Virus record (IMG/VR): IMGVR_UViG_3300025127_000137
Span: 1 to 31,600 of that record
Length of the DNA: 31,600 nt
DNA from: a virus
Strand: one strand, 5' to 3'
The stretch's first letter is position 1; each line of letters begins with the position of its first letter. This document shows positions 5,449-23,558 of this stretch, in pieces. Made by a program: the position numbers and the translations under genes. The notes under the pieces are model-generated. The model had not been told where the DNA came from. It saw nothing but the letters and a program-made list of their open reading frames with translations, and made no database searches.

Positions 5449-8400
5449 ATGGCCGTTTCAAACGTCACTCTACCTAACGGCGAGCGTGTTAACATCTCCC
5501 ATGAGGATGATGCTAGTGAACTCGACGTCCTTAACTTCGCTTACCGTGAATACGTTACTAACACGGACCCTGGTAGCGCCTTTGGTAGAGGTATAAGGGA
5601 CGGCGTTGACCTCCTTCAGGCTTCCTATGGTTCAACCCTTGAGGGGATTGGATCATTGCTGGACTCAGAATCCCTACAACAAGTAGGTGCTGATGTTGTT
5701 GCTGAACAGCGAGGACAGATGGATGCGGAAGCATTCCGCCAGCAACGATACGGGGACCAGGACGAGGGTATAGTTGACTACGCCTTGAACCTAGCTGGTG
5801 CCTCCACTCCACAGATGGCATCCACATTTGCTGGAGCTGGTGCGGGGGCGGCTATTGGAGCTGGATTTTTTGGAGTAGGTGCTTTACCAGGAGCAATTAT
5901 AGGTGGCTTCTTGGCTAATATGCCTTACTTCTATGGTGACAATAGAGAGCGCCAGAAGGAGGCCATTGAGCGAGGGTTTAGGACTGAGATGGATGAAGGT
6001 GCGGCTGCGCTATATGCTGTGCCTCAGTCCCTTTTGGATGCTGCATTCTCCGCCCTTGGTACCAAGTTCCTGTCGTCGGGAGCGCTTAAAGCTGGAGGAG
6101 GTTTGCTTACACGAGCAACAAGGGGTGCAGTCGAGGGTGCTATTATTGAAGCTCCTACAGAGCTAGGACAGCAGTTCCTGAATCGATACCAGGCTGGATT
6201 GCCAATCGATAGCGACGAAGCTAAACTTGAATACATGGAGGCGGCCAAGGGTGGCGCTCTTCTTGGTGGTTTATTTAGTGGTGGTGGTAGGGCCGTGTTC
6301 GGTAGCAAAGAAGGACCCGATGCTATGCCTGCACCAGCAGAGGAGGAGACGGTCCAGATGCCCCCCTCGGTTACTGCACCCGAACCTTCGGTTGCTACAC
6401 CAGAAGGTGAAGCAGTATCTCCAGAGGTAGGAGATATCCTTGAAGCTGAACAAGCACCTCAGAGTGAATTAACACCTGAGGATGAGGCCGCTATTGATAC
6501 AGAGATTGATGCTACTACTCAGCAAGACCAGCAAGGTATCGGAGACAGGCGCTTTGAAGACAACGTAGCCGTTGAGGAGGCCGATTATATTTTACCCGAC
6601 GTAGAGCTTGACGACATTGCCAGACTTGACGTAGGGCAACTCTCTGACGAAGAACTCCAGAAGTTAATTGAATCGTATAATACATATGATAACACGGGCG
6701 ACAGGGTCCGCAACTTGGATTATCTTCAACAATTTGCAGAAAGGTTTAATCGTGATCTTGATAAGAACAATAAAAAATACAATGCAGAAAGAAAGCGCAT
6801 TGCACGAGCAATTAAGGAACGTGATGCTAGATCTCGTGGAGAGGTTAGCCAGTTAAGTGAAGCTGATTTTGATGCCCTTGCCGAAGAAGCACAACGCAAA
6901 CGCGGAAGAGGTGGTTCACCAGAAGCTCAAACGGAAGAAATGCTAACAGCACAGGAAGAGGCTGCCCTGGAAGCGGAGATGCAACGTGAATTCTTTGGGG
7001 AGGCAGTGCTAACGGTAGAGGACGAGGCTGCTTTGGATGCGGAGATAAGGCGAGAACTGTCAGGTGACACTACAACCCAAGAAGATCTGCCCGTAGCGAC
7101 CAGTAAAACAATAAAGGAGTTCAGGGGGATGACTCCTAAGCAGGTTGAGGAGGCTAGGTTCGTTGACGAGCAAGCCAAGTCAGCGCCCGTAACTGCCCCA
7201 CCCCAGGAGGTTGATTCCGAGGCAGTGAAGGAACAACAGGATACTATTGATGATGCTGAGTCCCGCATTGCTGACTTGCAGTCCGAGATAGATACTGAAA
7301 AGAGCAATATCAAAGAAGCCAGGGACAGGAATAAAAAAGAAATTGCTGCTGTCCGTAAGTCAAAGCTATCCAAGGAAGATAAGGCCGATAAAATAGAGGA
7401 CCTCAAGGCATCTCTTCAGGACGAGGTTGATGACATTAACGGAAACATTGGCATCTACAAGGAAGAGATGTCTAGTTTTAAGAAGGACCTACGCAAGGCT
7501 AAGAAGGAACTGGATAAATTAAATACTGCAGCCCAAGGGACTGTTTCTGAGGCTGAGAAGGGATACCGTGAGTATTTAGCTGAGAGGGAACTACGTAAGG
7601 CCAAAAAGAAGAACATAAAGATAACTGCAAAAGTTCTAAGCAACTTGCGTAAGACCGCTGTTCAAATTGCAGGCGCTGTAGGATCAAGAACTAAGGTTGA
7701 GTTAACTACATTTTATTCCAAGGACGAGGACCGTTCAGCGACTTTTGATGCAGTCAACAACGATGGTATGTTTGATATTGTTGATGGTAATGCAATCAAA
7801 GGAAAAGAACTTCCTGTCGGGACTGTTGTTGATGCAAGAATAAATAAATACGAGGGCGGTGATTTTGAATTGTTTGATTCCCGTGAGCTAAGGCTCAAAG
7901 AGGACGGCACCTGGGAAGAAGTTAAAGATATAGCTAGACTAAGAGAAGAAGCAGCTCTGCCAAAAGCAGAAGGTGCCTTAACGGAAGAAGAGCTTGTATA
8001 CATCCTTGGCCAAATGGACGGGGACCTAACCGTAGGTGCTGATGGTCGTATCATTCCATTTACAGACGAAGAAGCATTTGTAGCACTGCCTTCAAATCAA
8101 AAAGCTAAACATCTCCTGCATAGAAAAAACCCAATTAAAAAGGGTGCAGTAAGACTAAACTTAAATTCAAAATTTTATAAGAAGGATGGAGTAGTTAAAA
8201 AGTATAACGCCGAACAAGAAAAGGCGGGGATACCAAGACAAGAGGGTGCGGTCGGACCTTTGTTTGTTCAGACCTTGCACCGAATAAACCGAGCAGGAGT
8301 GCCAGAACACACCAAGGCTTACAGTTATGGTCGTGCTTTTACCATTCGGAACGCAACATTCTCTGTAAATCCATTTGCTAAAACAATTATTAGATCAAAG

Positions 8401-11400
8401 GCTAAGAACAAATACCCAATGGCCAGCGTCGATGGAGACATTGTTGCAGATGCAGAGCCTAACCTGGGGGGCGAGGTCCTGTCCTTCAACCCGTTCGTGC
8501 ATGATTCTTTTGTAGATAGCCAAGGCAGGACAGTGATAGGAGCCGACGAGATTACTGTATACGGAACAAAAGGTTATGCCAGGGGCAACATACAATATTC
8601 AGATACAGCACCTGAGGTTGTTACTGCATCAGAGATTCTTAGCCTTGCAAGGCAAGGCAAGAAGTACGTTCACCCTAATTTTCACCCAAATGGAATAGAC
8701 CTATCTAAACTTAGTAGCGCCGAAATTGAAGCACTTGAGGCCCTGGCCGCTCAAGAGGATCCAGATAGTGCGCCACTAACAGAACAAGATGTACAGGACG
8801 GAAAAGAGGGAGAGCAAGGGCTTGTCGTTGATACTCCTGTCACTGGTGACGTGGTTGCGGGGGCTGACTTAATTCAACCAGGCGGACCCGTAAGTGTGCC
8901 TAACGCACCAGTTATCTCCAGGTCTTCACTGCGTGATAAAAATGGATTTATATATTTCTCGGACCGCACAAGGGTAGGTACATACACTGGGCTGGACCCT
9001 GAGAGTAACATTAGTATTCCGCTACAAGGCGGCATGGGATATGCGTTCATTCCCCAGAATGTCGAAGCGGAGGCTGGCTGGGCATTTACGTCTGATAATA
9101 TATTTACTCGCTTTCGTGATAAGGTAAATCAAACTGACGGAATTGGATACGTAGCCTTGTACACCAAGGAAAACCTGAGGGCTAACGGGACTTTCTTACT
9201 AGCCTATATAGCGGAGGTTGAGTATGCACTCGCTTCTGGTAAACTAACAAGGGCTGACTTCCAAAATGAAATCAACGGACTGCGTGAAAGGTTCCTTGCG
9301 AAGAAAGTTAAAGATAAGGACTTTATTTCTAGGGATGTGGATTGGTATTCGCTGTGGAACAAGCAATGGAAAACACCAGCGGACCTTCAAGCTGCACTTG
9401 ATGCAGCGGGGTTTGAAACTAGAGCAGCGGCTTTTTCAGCTAAGAAAGCTACAACGAAAGGTGCAAAGCCTGGTGATTTATCTGGTGGTCAGCTAGCATC
9501 TAAACGATCAGTCAAAAAAGGTATGCCTGATGTCATACGTATGATTGATCTTTTTGCCGAGCCTGACCTAGCAAATAGAAAACGTGGTGAAATCATTGGG
9601 GCCGTTCAGTTTCAAAAGGGACAGCAGTCCGCTGTTACTGCTAGCGAGATCGGTTCGGATAATCATTTAAGTTACCCTCTTGTAATTAGGGGTCGAGGCA
9701 TTGGGGTTTTTGATAGCACGGTAAATGTACTAGACGTAATTAAAACTCAGAAAGCAAAGAACCAAGCACTGCGAAGTGCAGAGACTAGCTTCCCTACTTC
9801 GTCTGAAGTCGGGTCCGCAGAAGTAACGGCTGGGACCGACACTGGCCCTGAGATAGCTAACATAATCAACGAGGGTAAGACCTTTGAGAATGTTGGTCAG
9901 CTAGAGCGATTCATTAACAAAGTATTTGCACCCGTAGCTAGCAAGCTGGGAGTTAAGATCGTAGCTAACTATTCAATCATTAGGGCCTTGCAATACAATG
10001 TAACGCAGGGCGTTATTGAATACAATCCAGTCGGTCTAATCAACAACGATAGCCAGTATCTTACTGCTAGTATGCGCGAGGAATTAATTCACGCGGCGAT
10101 GCACAAGGTCCTGATTAACCAGAACAAAGGCAAGAGCAAGGTAGCGGCCTGGGTGGACTTCATGACCAAGCTCGGCCAGGATCTTACAGGAGATCAAAGG
10201 CAGGCCCTGTCCGAGGTTTATTTTAATCTAGGTAGCGACATGGATTTCGGGGCTGAGTACAGCAGGGCTGTCATACAGCAGGCCCTTTACGGGGACATCA
10301 CTGAGGTCTATGCTAAGGGTAAATCATTTGAAAAGATTAAGAAACTATTCCGTTCTATACAGGGATTCATCGCTAGGACATTTGGCTCCGAGGTATCTAA
10401 CCCAGAAGTAGCTGGTGTCATACGGGCCTCTGCTGACCTGCTTAAAGCAGTTGACCCATCAGTGCGCCCAAGTAACCAGGTAGTCGTAGGTGCCGCGATG
10501 AATAACTCCGTGGACCTGAACCCTAACTCGGAGATAACTTCTCAGGACGTTGTCGAGGCGGGTAAGCCGCCGAGTAAGCGTAAGGTTGATCTTAACTTTG
10601 CGGATAAGTATCTGTTCACGGTTAGTTACGTCCTCGGTAAGATACACCCAAGGCTCAAGGGTTTAATACGGAACTACTACGGGATTATACAAACCAAGGT
10701 CCTTGCCTACCAGACTGCGATGGCACCGTTCTTTGTGAAAATGCGAGGCATCAAAAATAAGTCGGACCGCCTAAGACTGAAGCAACTCCTTATGTATAGC
10801 CCCGTGGTTGCTGATGCAGGCACAGCCGAACAGGAGGCGCTACTGGCTAAATACGGTATGCTTGAGGACTACAATAACCTTGTGCGTCCATCTCTAGATA
10901 AACTTAGGGCTGACCTAGTGGCACGGGGCGTAGATGTAGGTGATCTGTTTGATTACTTCCCTCGTCGTATTAAGAACTTCAAGGCACTACAAGCGGTCAA
11001 GGCCGCGTGGGGTAATACAGTTGGAGCAAGTTTCAAGGATTTTATAAAAGCGAGAAACGACAGAATATTGAAGGTTCGTTCTGATATGTTGACTCTAAAT
11101 GAAGAGCTTGTAAAAGCTAGCGACAACAACGATCAGGCTGGTGTTCAAAGAATAAGCCGACAGTTAAAAGAGCTGTCAGCTAAGGACGACGTAATCATCA
11201 GTATAGGAAGCAAGGAGACAGCGTTACAAGAAGCTCAGGCGTGGGAAGAGTTCACATCAAACCTAGCTAGGACTAATCCCGATATGCTCCCAGGCAACGT
11301 CCGTGAACGTGCAATGAAGGACCAGATTCCTGATGAGTTATTACAATACTACGAGGACCCAGCCCAAGCTATGGAGAGTTACATCTTCAACATGGTATCC

Positions 11401-12681
11401 GCTGCGGAAACTATTAAATTAATAGGCAGTAGATTTGTTACCAACAAAGAGGGGACTCAGATGGATGAGGCTAGCGAGTTAGGCAAACTCGTGCAGGAGC
11501 TACGTGCTTCGGGTGCTATCATTGATGAGCAAGCGGATCGAACAATCCCTGAGATAATGAAACTTATACTTTCTCCTAAGAAAGGTGAGTCCAGGATCCT
11601 GCAGTTAGCTCGGTCATTTGGATACGGGACACTTCTAGTTGAGTTCACCTCTACCCTATCGCAGTTATACGACCTTCCGTTTGTGATGCTGGACAATGGA
11701 TTAATACCCACCTTCAGCGCAATGTTCAGTTCCGAAAGACTCAAGGGTTCCGCCTTCGGGATAGATACCGAGAAGATTAGCCAGGAGTTCGCGGGGGATG
11801 ACAAGTTCCTAGAGAAGGCTGTTCGCCTAGGTCTTCGTTCTACTGGCTTCACAAAGCTGGACCAGATTATGAAGGAGACTAACCTAACGGCTAACTACAG
11901 ACGTTTCCGCAAGTTGGCTAACCTTTACTACAAGGACAGGAGTGACTCAAGGATTAAAACATTTACTGCTGAAATGACCGCGCTTGGCTACAGCCGCGCG
12001 GAGCAGGACCAATTGATAGCTGACCTGAAGGGAGACAAGAAGGATTCGGCCCTTGTCCGTAGCCTGCTGTTCAACAAGCTGTCGGAGACACAACCCCTAA
12101 GCTCGGCTGAGATGGCTATGGGTATTGTGGGTAACCCGAACCTAAGAATCGCTGTAGCTATGAAGTCCTTCATGGTTAAACAACTGGTCTTCACCAAGGA
12201 CAGAATGCTCAACGATATTGTTAACCCAAAAAGCACCAATGCACAGCGACTAAAAGCGTCCAAGGATCTGGCCAAGCTACTGACCTTTATGCTCCTAATT
12301 GGTATTCCTGTTGATGCCCTCAAGGACTTCTTGGCTGGCCGCGTAGGTTATCTTGATGACTACCTCTTTGACGGTGTGTTCCGTATAGCTGGTGTCAGTA
12401 GATATACTGGATACAAGATTCGCTCCGAGGGTATTGGCCGTGCGGCATTTGATTACGCAACTCCAGTAGCTTTCCAGCAGGCTATGGATGCGACGGGTGA
12501 ATTACAGAAGGTAATGAGTGGAGAGAGAGCGTTTACCCAAAGTAAGTTCGTTGCATACGCACCGTACTCGGACGTAGTCAATCGTATGTTTGGATTCCAG
12601 AAGGTGAAGGAAAGAAAGACAATCAAACGTAAGGCGTCCGAAGGAGAGTTCCCACTGTTCATACCACCTGGCGCCCTGTAA
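5449..12681 (+). CDS. Giant 2410-aa internal virion / ejection protein (large polyvalent type)
   Basis: By far the largest gene. Visible parts: a small N-terminal domain (about 1-35); a glycine-zipper hydrophobic region about 118-165 (AGAGAGAAIGAGFFGVGALP) able to insert in membranes; a second Gly/Ala-rich segment about 265-290; an acidic low-complexity region about 300-560; a long coiled coil about 585-700; a conserved-looking domain near 1165-1290 with PLQGG at 1191-1195; EELIHAAMH at 1544-1552, resembling a zincin HExxH with the first His replaced; and a C-terminal domain with a hydrophobic helix about 2276-2292 (LLTFMLLIGIPVDAL) ending in FPLFIPPGAL. Size, membrane segments and late position match T7 gp16-like ejection proteins and the 'large polyvalent protein' class. 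No lytic transglycosylase or RNA polymerase motif was seen. It ends the rightward transcription unit. Confidence 0.75.
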   Translation: MAVSNVTLPNGERVNISHEDDASELDVLNFAYREYVTNTDPGSAFGRGIRDGVDLLQASYGSTLEGIGSLLDSESLQQVGADVVAEQRGQMDAEAFRQQRYGDQDEGIVDYALNLAGASTPQMASTFAGAGAGAAIGAGFFGVGALPGAIIGGFLANMPYFYGDNRERQKEAIERGFRTEMDEGAAALYAVPQSLLDAAFSALGTKFLSSGALKAGGGLLTRATRGAVEGAIIEAPTELGQQFLNRYQAGLPIDSDEAKLEYMEAAKGGALLGGLFSGGGRAVFGSKEGPDAMPAPAEEETVQMPPSVTAPEPSVATPEGEAVSPEVGDILEAEQAPQSELTPEDEAAIDTEIDATTQQDQQGIGDRRFEDNVAVEEADYILPDVELDDIARLDVGQLSDEELQKLIESYNTYDNTGDRVRNLDYLQQFAERFNRDLDKNNKKYNAERKRIARAIKERDARSRGEVSQLSEADFDALAEEAQRKRGRGGSPEAQTEEMLTAQEEAALEAEMQREFFGEAVLTVEDEAALDAEIRRELSGDTTTQEDLPVATSKTIKEFRGMTPKQVEEARFVDEQAKSAPVTAPPQEVDSEAVKEQQDTIDDAESRIADLQSEIDTEKSNIKEARDRNKKEIAAVRKSKLSKEDKADKIEDLKASLQDEVDDINGNIGIYKEEMSSFKKDLRKAKKELDKLNTAAQGTVSEAEKGYREYLAERELRKAKKKNIKITAKVLSNLRKTAVQIAGAVGSRTKVELTTFYSKDEDRSATFDAVNNDGMFDIVDGNAIKGKELPVGTVVDARINKYEGGDFELFDSRELRLKEDGTWEEVKDIARLREEAALPKAEGALTEEELVYILGQMDGDLTVGADGRIIPFTDEEAFVALPSNQKAKHLLHRKNPIKKGAVRLNLNSKFYKKDGVVKKYNAEQEKAGIPRQEGAVGPLFVQTLHRINRAGVPEHTKAYSYGRAFTIRNATFSVNPFAKTIIRSKAKNKYPMASVDGDIVADAEPNLGGEVLSFNPFVHDSFVDSQGRTVIGADEITVYGTKGYARGNIQYSDTAPEVVTASEILSLARQGKKYVHPNFHPNGIDLSKLSSAEIEALEALAAQEDPDSAPLTEQDVQDGKEGEQGLVVDTPVTGDVVAGADLIQPGGPVSVPNAPVISRSSLRDKNGFIYFSDRTRVGTYTGLDPESNISIPLQGGMGYAFIPQNVEAEAGWAFTSDNIFTRFRDKVNQTDGIGYVALYTKENLRANGTFLLAYIAEVEYALASGKLTRADFQNEINGLRERFLAKKVKDKDFISRDVDWYSLWNKQWKTPADLQAALDAAGFETRAAAFSAKKATTKGAKPGDLSGGQLASKRSVKKGMPDVIRMIDLFAEPDLANRKRGEIIGAVQFQKGQQSAVTASEIGSDNHLSYPLVIRGRGIGVFDSTVNVLDVIKTQKAKNQALRSAETSFPTSSEVGSAEVTAGTDTGPEIANIINEGKTFENVGQLERFINKVFAPVASKLGVKIVANYSIIRALQYNVTQGVIEYNPVGLINNDSQYLTASMREELIHAAMHKVLINQNKGKSKVAAWVDFMTKLGQDLTGDQRQALSEVYFNLGSDMDFGAEYSRAVIQQALYGDITEVYAKGKSFEKIKKLFRSIQGFIARTFGSEVSNPEVAGVIRASADLLKAVDPSVRPSNQVVVGAAMNNSVDLNPNSEITSQDVVEAGKPPSKRKVDLNFADKYLFTVSYVLGKIHPRLKGLIRNYYGIIQTKVLAYQTAMAPFFVKMRGIKNKSDRLRLKQLLMYSPVVADAGTAEQEALLAKYGMLEDYNNLVRPSLDKLRADLVARGVDVGDLFDYFPRRIKNFKALQAVKAAWGNTVGASFKDFIKARNDRILKVRSDMLTLNEELVKASDNNDQAGVQRISRQLKELSAKDDVIISIGSKETALQEAQAWEEFTSNLARTNPDMLPGNVRERAMKDQIPDELLQYYEDPAQAMESYIFNMVSAAETIKLIGSRFVTNKEGTQMDEASELGKLVQELRASGAIIDEQADRTIPEIMKLILSPKKGESRILQLARSFGYGTLLVEFTSTLSQLYDLPFVMLDNGLIPTFSAMFSSERLKGSAFGIDTEKISQEFAGDDKFLEKAVRLGLRSTGFTKLDQIMKETNLTANYRRFRKLANLYYKDRSDSRIKTFTAEMTALGYSRAEQDQLIADLKGDKKDSALVRSLLFNKLSETQPLSSAEMAMGIVGNPNLRIAVAMKSFMVKQLVFTKDRMLNDIVNPKSTNAQRLKASKDLAKLLTFMLLIGIPVDALKDFLAGRVGYLDDYLFDGVFRIAGVSRYTGYKIRSEGIGRAAFDYATPVAFQQAMDATGELQKVMSGERAFTQSKFVAYAPYSDVVNRMFGFQKVKERKTIKRKASEGEFPLFIPPGAL

Positions 12682-15624: not shown

Positions 15625-16071
15625 TTAAAATTCAACGGATTGATTAACGGCACGAGGACTGTCCTTGCCGTGCTTGTTGGTTGCATCAGGGTCCTTGGTA
15701 TCATCGATAGCAAAGAGGCCGTTCAAGGCGTATTTACGTGCATAGGAACTAGCGGAGCCAGTAATCTGTGCTTCGTCCATACCCTTCTTAGTCTCAGCTT
15801 CACGAGCAAAGGCTGTTGTTACAGCTATGGGATCGGAGTGCGACTCGGTAACAGTAGCTGTTGCCTTGACGTATACCCTACCCCCTACCTCAACGATCTC
15901 GTCGCTGACTGTAAGGAAGCAATCGTATTTATTCAATAAAGGCTTAACGGCCTCTAGTATATCTTCGGCGGATCTGTAGGAATACCCACCGAACTTGTTA
16001 GTCTGTCCCTTCGGAGCCTTAAGCTCGGACTGGATGGACTGCATTATTTTTACTGGTTTTTTATCTGTCAT
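15625..16071 (-). CDS. erf: Erf-family single-strand annealing recombinase
   Basis: 148 residues. The ERF-domain signature is clear: KFGGYSYRSAEDILEAVKPL near the N-terminus, then VKATATVTESHSDPI and the hallmark MDEAQITGSASSYARKYAL with NGLFAIDD. These proteins bind ssDNA and anneal homologous strands for phage recombination and end repair (PF04404). The length is at the short end for the family, but all core motifs are present. It overlaps the endonuclease VII gene by 11 nt and precedes the SSB-like gene, a natural annealing/resolution set. Confidence 0.92.
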   Translation of the reverse strand: MTDKKPVKIMQSIQSELKAPKGQTNKFGGYSYRSAEDILEAVKPLLNKYDCFLTVSDEIVEVGGRVYVKATATVTESHSDPIAVTTAFAREAETKKGMDEAQITGSASSYARKYALNGLFAIDDTKDPDATNKHGKDSPRAVNQSVEF

Positions 16072-20536: not shown

Positions 20537-20740
20537 TTAGTTATGCTTTACGATAATAGAAGTTTCCCCCGTGCGTATATCGGTAGCGATGAAAACGTCA
20601 TCATCGCATCCTAACTCTTTTAAGCGTTCTAGTTTGTCGGCCTCACTCATCCCTTTAGTCGGTTGGCAATAGACGTTCTCTAGGACTTCAGTTATTGAGG
20701 CGTGTTCTGTGCTATCTGGGTGTAGTATTTCTGTATTCAT
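20537..20740 (-). CDS. Hypothetical protein with MNTE start (67 aa)
   Basis: Unrecognised. 67 residues, MNTEILHPDSTEHASITEVL, then a helical middle (GMSEADKLERLKELGCDDDV) and FIATDIRTGETSIIVKHN. A small acidic alpha/beta protein. The start sits in the second exact copy of the 24-nt start repeat, with no Shine-Dalgarno. Upstream are a broken third copy of the repeat and one of the two-hairpin elements. Confidence 0.55.
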   Translation of the reverse strand: MNTEILHPDSTEHASITEVLENVYCQPTKGMSEADKLERLKELGCDDDVFIATDIRTGETSIIVKHN

Positions 20741-20795: not shown

Positions 20796-20853
20796 GTAAG
20801 CTGATTGCTTGCACCCAGAAAGCCCGCACCAGATGGACTGGATACGGGCTGTG
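20796..20853 (-). terminator. Composite two-hairpin element, copy D
   Basis: Minus strand, right after the stop of the gene at 20856: CACAGCCCG...CGGGCT stem (20845-20850 with 20821-20826, extended inside by CCAG/CTGG), then TTTCTGGGT, then a second hairpin with GCAAGC/GCTTAC arms (one C-A mismatch). It shares its frame with three other copies at 21530-21583, 21842-21907 and 22174-22227. Confidence 0.75.
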
Positions 20854-20855
20854 GA

Positions 20856-21065
20856 TTACTCCGCGTGGAGCCTGCTTGCAACGTCCTTAGCGGACGCCTG
20901 CCATGCTTCCCAACTGACTAGACCATTAGTCCAATTGTCGGGCTTCTCATTGAGTCCTGCGATCTGCTCGCAGTATTTCTCAATGGCGCTTAGAACCACG
21001 ATCTGGTTCAAGGGCGAACCCCATTCCATCGCGTCGGTTACTTTTTCTACGTTTGTTTTACTCAT
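20856..21065 (-). CDS. Hypothetical protein (69 aa)
   Basis: Unrecognised. 69 residues, helical throughout: MSKTNVEKVTDAMEWGSPLN, QIVVLSAIEKYCEQIAGLNE, WTNGLVSWEAWQASAKDVAS. The W-rich segment resembles small helical phage proteins that bind host factors, but no family is identifiable. The ATG overlaps the upstream stop by 8 nt. The stop TAA is followed within 2 nt by a two-hairpin element. Confidence 0.55.
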   Translation of the reverse strand: MSKTNVEKVTDAMEWGSPLNQIVVLSAIEKYCEQIAGLNEKPDNWTNGLVSWEAWQASAKDVASRLHAE

Positions 21066-21504
21066 AGTTTACTCTCTGTTGGTTTTCGTCGATGTGGATC
21101 ATTATGATCTCTTTCTCTACGTTTGAATCGTCGTCGCCCAGTTCAACTCTGATAGAATACTTCGGAGGCAATTCCGTTTCGTATTCCATCCAGAGATAAA
21201 ACTCTGGGTCTAAAAACAAGTCTCGTTCAGTCAAGTCCTGCTTGCTGTCTGGCATTGCATCTGGGTCATCCCATAGCTCCAAGTCGATGACCGTATGGTT
21301 GCGGAGTTCATCGTAGTGGATATCATCTATACTGGTGTCGCACCAGTAGCTCCTGCCGTCCTTTTCGATGTCCAGACCGCCGAAACTAAGTTTGTCATCA
21401 TCAAGCAGAACCCTGTCTTCCTCCTTCCACTTGCGGGTGAGGTCTCCCTCCGCTATGACACGGATGGAATTCAAAGTTGCGTTTTCAATAGTAGCTTCTT
21501 TCAT
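21058..21504 (-). CDS. Acidic hypothetical protein (148 aa)
   Basis: Unrecognised. 148 residues, very acidic (WDDPDAMPDSKQDLTERDLF, ELGDDDSNVEKEIIMIHIDE), with an N-terminal strand/helix mix. Such acidic early proteins include DNA mimics, but charge alone does not show this. It begins behind the conserved leader (AATCAACCAATAAAAATATG), which follows a two-hairpin element. It overlaps the downstream gene by 8 nt, the only pair in this stretch that lacks an intervening element. Confidence 0.55.
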   Translation of the reverse strand: MKEATIENATLNSIRVIAEGDLTRKWKEEDRVLLDDDKLSFGGLDIEKDGRSYWCDTSIDDIHYDELRNHTVIDLELWDDPDAMPDSKQDLTERDLFLDPEFYLWMEYETELPPKYSIRVELGDDDSNVEKEIIMIHIDENQQRVNYE

Positions 21505-21529
21505 ATTTTTATTGGTTGATTGTTGATTC

Positions 21530-21583
21530 GACGGGACATCCGTCTACCCAGAAAGCCGTGACCCCGAAGAGCCACGGCTGTGG
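21530..21583 (-). terminator. Composite two-hairpin element, copy C (UUCG tetraloop)
   Basis: Directly after the stop of the gene at 21586: an 11-bp stem (21569-21579 with 21554-21564, two G-U pairs) closed by a C(UUCG)G tetraloop, then TTTCTGGGT, then a second hairpin GACGG/CCGTC (21530-21534 with 21540-21544). The stem sequence differs from the other copies while pairing is kept. Confidence 0.8.
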
Positions 21584-21585
21584 TG

Positions 21586-21816
21586 TTAACTGATTGTCGC
21601 AGATGTAAACTTCGACGATGTCCAAAGCCATTCGCCGTCTGCGTAAACATAGAGGTCAACGCTCTGATCGGTGTATTCGTCCGACAGCTTTTCGAGAGCC
21701 TTTTCAGCTACCTCTAGTGACTTGCAAGCCACCTTCTTTTTATAGTGCGGATACTTGCCTGCGGTTACGATATACTTCATGTCTTCGGCGATTGTTCCTT
21801 CGTTATAATTACTCAT
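21586..21816 (-). CDS. Hypothetical protein (76 aa)
   Basis: Unrecognised. 76 residues: MSNYNEGTIAEDMKYIVTAG, then YKKKVACKSLEVAEKALEKL and SVDLYVYADGEWLWTSSKFT. The beta-alpha-beta-beta arrangement (YIVTAG strand, helix, VDLYVY strand, EWLWTS strand) is a frequent small-phage-protein fold. It lies between two hairpin elements and has its own leader (ACCAATCAAATATCATG), so it forms a complete cassette. Confidence 0.6.
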   Translation of the reverse strand: MSNYNEGTIAEDMKYIVTAGKYPHYKKKVACKSLEVAEKALEKLSDEYTDQSVDLYVYADGEWLWTSSKFTSATIS

Positions 21817-21841
21817 GATATTTGATTGGTTATGTGTTAAA

Positions 21842-21907
21842 TGTAAGAGATCAGAGATGACCTGCTTACACCCAAAAAGCCCGTAGCGGTTAGGCTACGA
21901 GCTGTGT
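21842..21907 (-). terminator. Composite two-hairpin element, copy B
   Basis: After the stop of the gene at 21914: stem AGCTCGTAGC/GCTACGGGCT (21894-21903 with 21878-21887, one G-U), loop of 6, then TTTTTGGGT, then a longer second hairpin with TGTAAG/CTTACA (21865-21870 with 21842-21847) and an inner GGTCA/TGATC stem. The inner stem pairs fully (with a G-U) only on the minus strand, so the minus-strand RNA is the structured form. Confidence 0.8.
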
Positions 21908-21913
21908 GGATCG

Positions 21914-22147
21914 TTAATACAATAAGTTGCCTTGGCAGTCGAGGCGACCTAGATACTCGTCTTCATCTCGACGGTCTTGAACCTCCTGTGGAAGCGCCTC
22001 AAACCGAAGCTCGACTGCTTTAGATTTAGGGTTTCCGTTAACATCCCATCGTTCGCCATTGGCGAGCGTGACCTCGTAACCATATTCGGTCGAATGCCAC
22101 TTTTGGATGTCTAATACTTCACCTGTTTCTGCGTTTTGATATTCCAT
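21914..22147 (-). CDS. Hypothetical protein (77 aa)
   Basis: Unrecognised. 77 residues from ATG 22147: MEYQNAETGEVLDIQKWHST, EYGYEVTLANGERWDVNGNP, ELRFEALPQEVQDRRDEDEY. Small beta-rich N-terminal part and acidic/basic helical end. An upstream in-frame ATG (22195) would include the leader and hairpin sequence and is rejected. It has the standard cassette leader (AACAATCAACCAATCAAAATT) directly before the ATG and a hairpin element on either side. Confidence 0.55.
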   Translation of the reverse strand: MEYQNAETGEVLDIQKWHSTEYGYEVTLANGERWDVNGNPKSKAVELRFEALPQEVQDRRDEDEYLGRLDCQGNLLY

Positions 22148-22173
22148 AATTTTGATTGGTTGATTGTTAATTT

Positions 22174-22227
22174 GAAGCAGTGTGCTTCTACCCAAAAAGC
22201 CCGCACCTTGTGGGGTGCGAGCTGTGG
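22174..22227 (-). terminator. Composite two-hairpin element, copy A
   Basis: After the stop of the gene at 22229: stem AGCTCGCACC/GGTGCGGGCT (22214-22223 with 22198-22207, one G-U), 6-nt loop, TTTTTGGGT, then second hairpin GAAGCA/TGCTTC (22174-22179 with 22183-22188). The five T residues make this copy a good intrinsic-terminator candidate. Confidence 0.8.
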
Positions 22228-22228
22228 G

Positions 22229-22513
22229 TTACCAAGGTAGCAGTGAAGCTCCGAGTTGGCGTTGGATTCGTTGGACATTAGGGCTGACCTTCGGCACCTG
22301 CTTGGCTATAAAAGCCTTGCCGTAGATGTCTGCGTCTGGGGCTTCCTCGGTGGCTTTCCATCCGAGTTTGATGCCCCTGTATCCTTCGTCCTTCCATGAG
22401 TCCCGCATCGCCTCTAGCTCGTATTCAGCTTCGGCTTTGTCGTATGATCCATAGAGGGTTTCTGTTGCACCGTCGAGTTTGGCAGTGATTTGGAAGTACT
22501 TGAATTCAGTCAT
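22229..22513 (-). CDS. Hypothetical protein (94 aa), first gene of the leftward unit
   Basis: Unrecognised. 94 residues: MTEFKYFQITAKLDGATETL, YGSYDKAEAEYELEAMRDSW, then a helical/disordered end (VPKVSPNVQRIQRQLGASLL). N-terminal strand, strand, helix arrangement. It is the rightmost convincing leftward gene, so the early promoter should lie in the following 1 kb. It carries the same leader style (AATCAACCAATAACCAATCC) as the cassettes to its left. Confidence 0.6.
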   Translation of the reverse strand: MTEFKYFQITAKLDGATETLYGSYDKAEAEYELEAMRDSWKDEGYRGIKLGWKATEEAPDADIYGKAFIAKQVPKVSPNVQRIQRQLGASLLPW

Positions 22514-23276: not shown

Positions 23277-23332
23277 TGGAGGGGGTCAGCGCGCGCGCCA
23301 ACGCTAGATACATGTATCTTCAATCGGGGCTT

Positions 23333-23356
23333 AAAAAAAAGTGCCTCTCAAGGCGC
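23333..23356 (-). terminator. Leftward terminator-like hairpin with T8
   Basis: On the minus strand GCGCCT-TGAG-AGGCAC (one C-A mismatch) is followed by eight Ts. It would stop leftward transcription that started right of here, or terminate a short leftward RNA. The stem is short. Confidence 0.45.
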
Positions 23357-23371
23357 CCCTCCTGGCCCTCT

Positions 23372-23476
23372 CCTTAAGGTTCCTTCCTTAAGGTCCCCTT
23401 CCCTTTGGGTTCTCTTCTTAAGGCCCCCTCTACTTTTTACAAAAGTACTTACATAAAGGACGAGTGTTCCTTAAGG
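23372..23476. repeat. Four CTTAAGG palindromic sites
   Basis: CCTTAAGG at 23372-23379, 23386-23393 and 23469-23476, and CTTAAGG at 23417-23423, within pyrimidine-rich DNA upstream of the small-terminase promoter. Spacing between site starts is 14, about 31 and about 52 nt. They could be binding sites for a dimeric regulator or for the small terminase (pac). Confidence 0.6.
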
Positions 23477-23558
23477 AAGAGGGCAATGAAAAGACCTGTC
23501 AAGTCCGTAGTCACATATTTTTTTACCTATGGCTCATTAACTTGACGGATCCTCGATA

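Follow-up and report, generated by a model that had tools for sequence, protein, structure and literature searches.

How are genes expressed that lie behind a series of terminators, with no visible promoter between them? This testable question is raised by the window, the whole viral contig of 31.6 kb that was analysed. Its early region is read leftward, from about 23.5 kb to 12.8 kb, and codes for an exonuclease, an endonuclease VII, an Erf-like annealing protein (15625-16071) and a DnaB helicase; the terminase and other genes of the window are read rightward. Where the early region begins, copies of a composite two-hairpin element lie between small genes; after the last copy, the exonuclease, endonuclease VII, Erf and DnaB genes follow on the same strand without more copies. 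A helicase gene is also found downstream of the array, on the same strand, in 10 of 10 long carrier contigs (by coordinates; two were read as circular). The reading favoured here, held with moderate confidence and drawn from sequence comparison, is that the element is a cassette seam opening the early operon, in which the terminator of the upstream gene would be fused to a structured 5' hairpin of the downstream gene and at which recombination would occur.

Four copies of a covarying two-hairpin element

The element is laid out as CCACA, hairpin 1 (9-11 bp), TTTYTGGGT, hairpin 2 (5-7 bp, usually with a 5-nt loop), an A/C-rich leader and ATG; the window copies can also be read as CACAGC, a stem, GGCTTTYTGGGT and then the second hairpin. 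A preliminary description of the window had placed two-hairpin copies after four leftward genes, and all four were found, on the minus strand (Table 1), whereas the element pattern had no occurrence in 100 shuffles of the window. The range of 6-11 bp given there for the first stem had to be narrowed to 9-11 bp, and, as for the second hairpin, that of copy 2 is longer, in a form that recurs in other contigs, and that of copy 4 contains one C-A mismatch. Minimum free energy (MFE) folds contained both hairpins in each of the four copies, with z between -3.4 and -6.5. A covariance model (R1) was built from 39 distinct copies of equal length, with the structure supplied.

Table 1. Positions of the element copies, their parts and the neighbouring genes in the window, and of the mini-tmRNAs in related arrays
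Feature	Position	Strand	Support or remark
Copy 1, element	22226-22190	-	R1, 84.5 bits
Copy 1, hairpin 1, GCTCGCACC/GGTGCGGGC	22199..22222	-	pattern, R1, MFE fold
Copy 1, linker TTTTTGGGT, U-tract and GGGT	22190..22198	-
Copy 1, hairpin 2, GAAGC-ACACT-GCTTC, unpaired A before	22174..22189	-	covariation, R1, MFE fold
Copy 2, element	21906-21870	-	R1, 61.7 bits
Copy 2, hairpin 1, GCTCGTAGC/GCTACGGGC	21879..21902	-	pattern, R1, MFE fold
Copy 2, linker TTTTTGGGT	21870..21878	-	pattern
Copy 2, hairpin 2, long form TGTAAG-c-AGGTCA/TGATCT-CTTACA	21842..21870	-	MFE fold
Copy 3, element	21582-21546	-	R1, 69.7 bits
Copy 3, hairpin 1, GCCGTGGCTC-TTCG-GGGTCACGGC	21555..21578	-	pattern, R1, MFE fold
Copy 3, linker TTTCTGGGT	21546..21554	-	pattern
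Copy 3, hairpin 2, GACGG-ATGTC-CCGTC, unpaired A before	21530..21545	-	R1, MFE fold
Copy 4, element	20853-20813	-	R1, 55.9 bits
Copy 4, hairpin 1, GCCCGTATCCAG..CTGGTGCGGGC	20822..20849	-	pattern, R1, MFE fold
Copy 4, linker TTTCTGGGT	20813..20821	-	pattern
Copy 4, hairpin 2, GCAAGC-AATCA-GCTTAC, one C-A mismatch	20796..20812	-	R1, MFE fold
First cassette gene, 94 aa, family F8	22229..22513	-	stop 6 nt ahead of copy 1 hairpin 1
Second cassette gene, 77 aa	21914..22147	-
Third cassette gene, 76 aa	21586..21816	-
Fourth cassette, first gene, 148 aa	21058..21504	-
Fourth cassette, second gene, 69 aa, family F3	20856..21065	-
First gene past the last copy	20537..20740	-
Mini-tmRNA	L049 11453-11519	-
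Mini-tmRNA	L216 8486-8552	-
Mini-tmRNA	L219 12078-12144	-
Mini-tmRNA	L230 5403-5469	+
Mini-tmRNA, further contigs	L214, L043, L204, L090, L065, L098, L209, L123

That the stems vary in sequence while their pairing persists, as had been claimed, was borne out in the 39 distinct elements. Paired cells amounted to 95.9% (76.0 in the shuffled set) and double-changed cells, over both helices, to 96 against 31.1; changes on both sides were seen in 9 of the 15 pairs. The covariation score was 0.527, compared with 0.175 for the shuffled set, and the signal was lost when partners were slid (0.104 at most). A chance repeat is ruled out by this covariation together with the empty shuffles.

Helix 1 is fully paired in 39 of 39 sequences and, read on the minus (coding) strand, is rich in G-U pairs and free of A-C mismatches; it is therefore an RNA structure of the message. 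The earlier proposal that G-U pairs favour the minus-strand RNA thus holds for helix 1, but not for the core of helix 2, which pairs almost without G-U and leaves the strand undecided by that measure. When 148 copies of hairpin 2 were set in a fixed register, the third pair stayed A-U and the fifth G-C, and the loop kept an A in its first position and a pyrimidine in its fourth, whereas pairs 2, 4 and 6 alternated among the standard pairs. A dimeric DNA operator is an unlikely identity for hairpin 2, as its arms vary with compensation and its loop is asymmetric. An outer helix, (CC)CA/UGG(G), encloses hairpin 1 in the MFE folds of all four window copies; as helices of at least 5 pairs were only moderately enriched (37%, against 17% in shuffles; 141 copies), it was kept out of the core model.

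Putative terminator, linker and leader

Hairpin 1 has the layout of an intrinsic terminator, a GC-rich stem-loop with a U-tract at once after it, and mostly starts 6-8 nt past the stop codon. Over 203 copies, its median dG was -16.8 kcal/mol and the median nT 3.8, and about 88% of the copies had a d'Aubenton-Carafa score of d > 0 as terminators. The U-tract is just 4-5 U long and is followed by GGG, and among the three window copies scored (copy 2 left out) two were borderline or below threshold, with d = 5.6 and -3.0. The annotated T7 terminator TE (NC_001604, position 7588), which according to its annotation works with the E. coli RNA polymerase, was matched by R1 with 18.4 bits. It resembles the element in its succession of stop codon, CACACT, GC-rich stem and TTTCTGCG (a TTTCTG tail) before the next gene, and differs in that it is annotated only once, behind the ligase gene, and has a TTCG loop, a TGCG tail and no conserved second hairpin. 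From its sequence, hairpin 1 would be an intrinsic terminator of the T7 TE type that belongs to the upstream gene. The GGCTTTYTGGGT block is kept beyond what a terminator needs, which in part reflects ascertainment and hints at a further role.

A GGC-TTTYT-GGGT-R-like block stood before hairpin 2 and leader, at a constant distance, in 106 of 107 copies, a conservation that is somewhat overstated because the loci were mostly found through that block; TTTCTAGGT and TTTTTGAGT are exceptions among the linkers. One hairpin 2, in contig L204, is free-standing, with neither hairpin 1 nor the block. The next ATG mostly lies 50-53 nt past hairpin 1. The leader before it is A/C-rich with almost no G (about 2% at most positions from -22 to -4), lacks a Shine-Dalgarno (SD) site, and its position -3 is A in 99%. 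A leader shared by the downstream genes, also part of the preliminary description, is present; yet AACCAAT..AAATATG is also found ahead of genes without the element (20740, 20522); it is therefore not specific to the element and represents the general SD-less start context of the phage. The view of each small gene as a cassette with its own terminator and a conserved 5' hairpin agrees with the terminator scores, the covariation and the R1 matches.

No promoter had been visible between the copies, and none appeared in the motif searches. Sigma-70-like sites were not above chance and were absent from the elements on the minus strand, TATAAT-like sites in the leaders were as frequent as in shuffled sequence (0.358 vs 0.362), and TAnnTTTG was not found in the elements on the minus strand. 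A bacterial promoter in the seam was rejected, the sigma-70-like and TAnnTTTG motifs being absent there or not enriched. In the intergenic stretch that precedes the early genes, the minus strand has a single TAnnTTTG site, TACTTTTG (23440-23447), which matches the promoter core of Bacteroidota. This match and the SD-less starts with A at -3 hint at a Bacteroidota-like host. At 23330-23480 (minus strand), between the divergent early and late regions, there is a cluster of CCTTAAGG / CCTTAAG-type repeats, a possible binding array for a regulator.

A promoter of another kind was considered, in which hairpin 2 or the GGCTTTYTGGGT block would be the start site of a phage-type RNA polymerase, by a T7-like GGG start or an N4-like DNA hairpin. 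A hairpin directly behind a T-rich stretch and GGG would suit such a site, as would the almost strictly Watson-Crick pairing of hairpin 2. However, the exact block is confined in the window to the four hairpin 1 copies (one extra match to its 11-mer, at 12224-12234, lies within a gene), and the free-standing hairpin 2 has no block. Nor were polymerase families matched among the window proteins scanned, including one of 2410 aa, or by a Pfam RNA_pol search of ten carriers that was silent on its controls too. With no polymerase found in these sets, such a promoter was set aside as very improbable. The 2410-aa protein (5449-12681, plus strand) gave only weak family matches (L5 gp82 domain, DUF6861) and contains a readable EELIHAAMH stretch that resembles a metalloprotease motif.

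Carriers and reassortment of cassettes

The preliminary description had proposed a covariance search, in which a lack of further copies would have counted against it; the outcome was the opposite. R1 recovered all four window copies and, at E < 1e-4, gave 247 matches; these lie in 76 other viral contigs, some of them duplicates. The simple element pattern is present in many viral contigs among the matches listed; a stricter composite pattern matched 66 viral contigs and found no match in the 257 Gb GTDB genome set, in which no relative of the terminase was found either. A looser script gave 174 distinct copies in which the second hairpin could be parsed; a few of these copies are chance matches in unrelated contigs. 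Contigs contain up to 8 or more copies. When 80 contigs were picked by their helicase alone, 17 full-length R1 matches above 35 bits were obtained, all from four contigs with helicases that share 92-97% identity with the window's; relatives with helicases below 70% identity gave nothing above 17 bits, many of these loci stopping short of the early region.

Where a terminase is present, those of the carriers form one family (54-88% identity), and the carrier helicases are diverse (26-80% identity). A single copy is carried by some contigs, L018 and L014 among them, in which no terminase of this family is recognisable. The carriers are a family of uncultured, mostly marine phages. No family of Rfam 15 matched the composite element at gathering score, and the element thus represents an abundant RNA without an Rfam match. 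It was not found in Phage C75C1, the nearest annotated relative (terminase 71.5% identical), in which the one early gene boundary inspected has a plain terminator and no hairpin 2. This boundary fits an addition of hairpin 2 onto an ordinary terminator.

The genes flanking 203 copies were sorted into 100 families, almost all of them below 150 residues (median 81 aa); a Pfam scan of representatives of ten flanking families gave only DUF7417 above cut-off. The same gene families adjoin many different neighbours, with differing hairpin alleles: family 4 was found downstream of six distinct upstream families, and family 7 of five. In pairs of copies sharing only the upstream gene, the full hairpin 1 was identical in 17.2% (1.5% in unrelated pairs) and hairpin 2 in 3.6% (1.0%), whereas in pairs sharing only the downstream gene hairpin 2 was identical in 5.3% and hairpin 1 in 4.4%. 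Hairpin 2 is thus linked only slightly more to the downstream than to the upstream gene. The allele of hairpin 1 tracks the upstream gene, and so hairpin 1 forms the 3' end of the cassette and exchange falls inside or near the seam. Since gene neighbours and the alleles of each hairpin come in different combinations from phage to phage, the copies are seams between shuffling cassettes; their suggested role as boundaries for cassette swapping agrees with the many neighbours of the same families and the reassorted alleles.

This shuffling of genes and hairpin alleles is what repeats serving purely for recombination or spacing, with no role in gene expression, would also give. Such repeats would not explain the strong covariation in both helices, nor the single orientation and fixed place between a stop codon and the following start, and they are a most improbable account of the element. 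Under the favoured reading as a cassette seam, recombination would be directed to the seam because it is nearly identical everywhere. Small genes would be gained, lost and reordered there, in a phage that has an Erf-type annealing protein, and an incoming gene would arrive with a fitting start and stop. The seam marks points at which new small genes are inserted and can be used for mining such genes, which are likely to serve in host takeover and counter-defence.

The promoter early stem-loops (PeSLs) of T4-type phages reportedly combine a terminator stem-loop with an early promoter and take part in gene shuffling. They are the closest known system: both are repeated composites with a terminator stem-loop at the boundaries of small genes and with modular gene shuffling. 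The element is nevertheless not a PeSL, because a promoter was looked for and not found; a covarying second hairpin takes the place of the early promoter, and the carrier phage is not T4-like. The terminator-based seams of T4-type phages have an analogue in unrelated small phages, with a conserved RNA hairpin replacing the promoter half.

Proposed readthrough and a possible role of hairpin 2

In the mechanism that we propose, RNA polymerase would come in from an early promoter region upstream and would stop, in part or entirely, at each hairpin 1. Hairpin 2 begins where the terminated transcript would end and would act as a 5' element of the downstream gene. For polymerase passing hairpin 1, the next section of the message would begin with hairpin 2 and an unstructured, A/C-rich, SD-less leader. 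Strong termination at every hairpin 1 would silence the replication genes unless a readthrough mechanism existed; if several terminators do precede these genes without promoters, readthrough, partial or regulated, must occur. It could result from leaky terminators, with a short U-tract broken by GGG, or from something that aids the passage of the polymerase, for which hairpin 2 is a candidate signal. Most likely, hairpin 2 would mark the RNA for a protein or for the RNA polymerase during terminator passage, or else shield the 5' end.

A rival reading is a regulated antitermination in which hairpin 2, with or without the linker, acts like nut or put and makes the polymerase resist the terminator that ends the same cassette, so that expression of the replication genes would wait for the factor. 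It would account for a series of terminators that precedes the replication genes and shows no promoter motif in between, for the conserved stem and loop identities and asymmetric loop of hairpin 2, as expected of a recognised RNA, and for the hairpin 2 at the cassette start that goes with each window hairpin 1 after the first. However, the first cassette gene of the window ends in a hairpin 1 without a preceding hairpin 2, a whole operon is normally served by a single nut or put site, neither a boxA-like sequence nor an N-like protein was identified, and the architecture of put RNA is different. We regard this explanation as unlikely, though still deserving some weight. That it would constitute a new kind of relay, each cassette carrying its own 5' 'pass' hairpin and 3' terminator, is likewise doubtful; if true, any reshuffled array would stay under one timing switch controlling access to the replication genes.

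The HK022 put RNA, to which the pair of hairpins had been likened, is a single, promoter-proximal element of which both stems jointly bind RNA polymerase (PMC9378689). Like put and the lambda nut site, the element is about 70 nt long, has two stem-loops and occurs in early transcripts, with early genes behind terminators. However, put lies after each early promoter, once per operon, whereas the element recurs after most small genes, with four copies in the window, and its first stem resembles a terminator where the put stems together bind polymerase (PMC9378689). A put-like reading is not supported in these details.

The two stems could instead form a processing or stability module, cut in the U-rich linker, with hairpin 1 guarding the 3' end and hairpin 2 the next 5' end. 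In all copies a U-rich linker of constant length does lie between two stable stems, a layout that supplies every gene with a 3' and a 5' hairpin. No RNase was identified, however, the outer helix predicted in the four window copies would partly close the linker, and the linker sequence is conserved beyond the needs of known cleavage sites. Such processing is thus an improbable, if not negligible, function of the element.

Repeats ahead of start codons are also known from the cluster K mycobacteriophages, in which the SAS is a conserved 13-bp start-site sequence (GGGATAGGAGCCC) and the ESAS has conserved 17-bp arms (PMC3203893). They resemble the element in preceding a subset of non-structural genes and, in about half, in including an inverted repeat with a variable spacer (PMC3203893). 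In the element, by contrast, the arms vary with compensation, the leader is SD-less and a terminator is fused in front; no asymmetric 13-mer of the SAS type was seen at the start codon, where the leader is A/C-rich.

Other structured RNAs were also observed. On the minus strand of L204 (about 9260-9120), the second hairpin, which comes after a CCGTGGC hairpin 1, contains an insert of about 130 nt with more stems (GACGGAC ... GTCCGTC). The same insert start was seen in L028, L037 and L117, of which L037 has another hairpin 1 allele; the insert probably represents a further structured RNA that takes up the slot of hairpin 2. A type II hammerhead was found in L212. The leader of the window's first cassette gene contains a RAGATH-24 RNA (22735-22596, minus strand, 66.1 bits) and, directly behind it, a twister-P1-like motif (22592-22537, minus strand) whose 25.5 bits do not reach the gathering score. 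Further RAGATH-24 RNAs are present in L065, L043, L098, L123, L216 and L230, and the same twister-like motif is readable in L204, beside the GATGACGTAGTAAG..GGGACAT end.

Related arrays, but not the window, contain a 'mini-tmRNA' of 66-67 nt (Table 1) that matches the Rfam tmRNA family with 53-70 bits, above the gathering score. Only both ends of tmRNA are matched, and 3 nt replace about 310. The RNA includes an acceptor stem bearing G3-U70, a T-arm and an encoded CCA; its middle stem is short and varies with compensation. The 3' part of the mini-tmRNA was found in 35 viral contigs. By its sequence it resembles a tmRNA reduced to its tRNA-like domain, the message part being absent, and it may possibly be an alanine-accepting decoy of trans-translation. 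In L049, L216 and L219 it stands right after the hairpin 1 linker, replacing hairpin 2.
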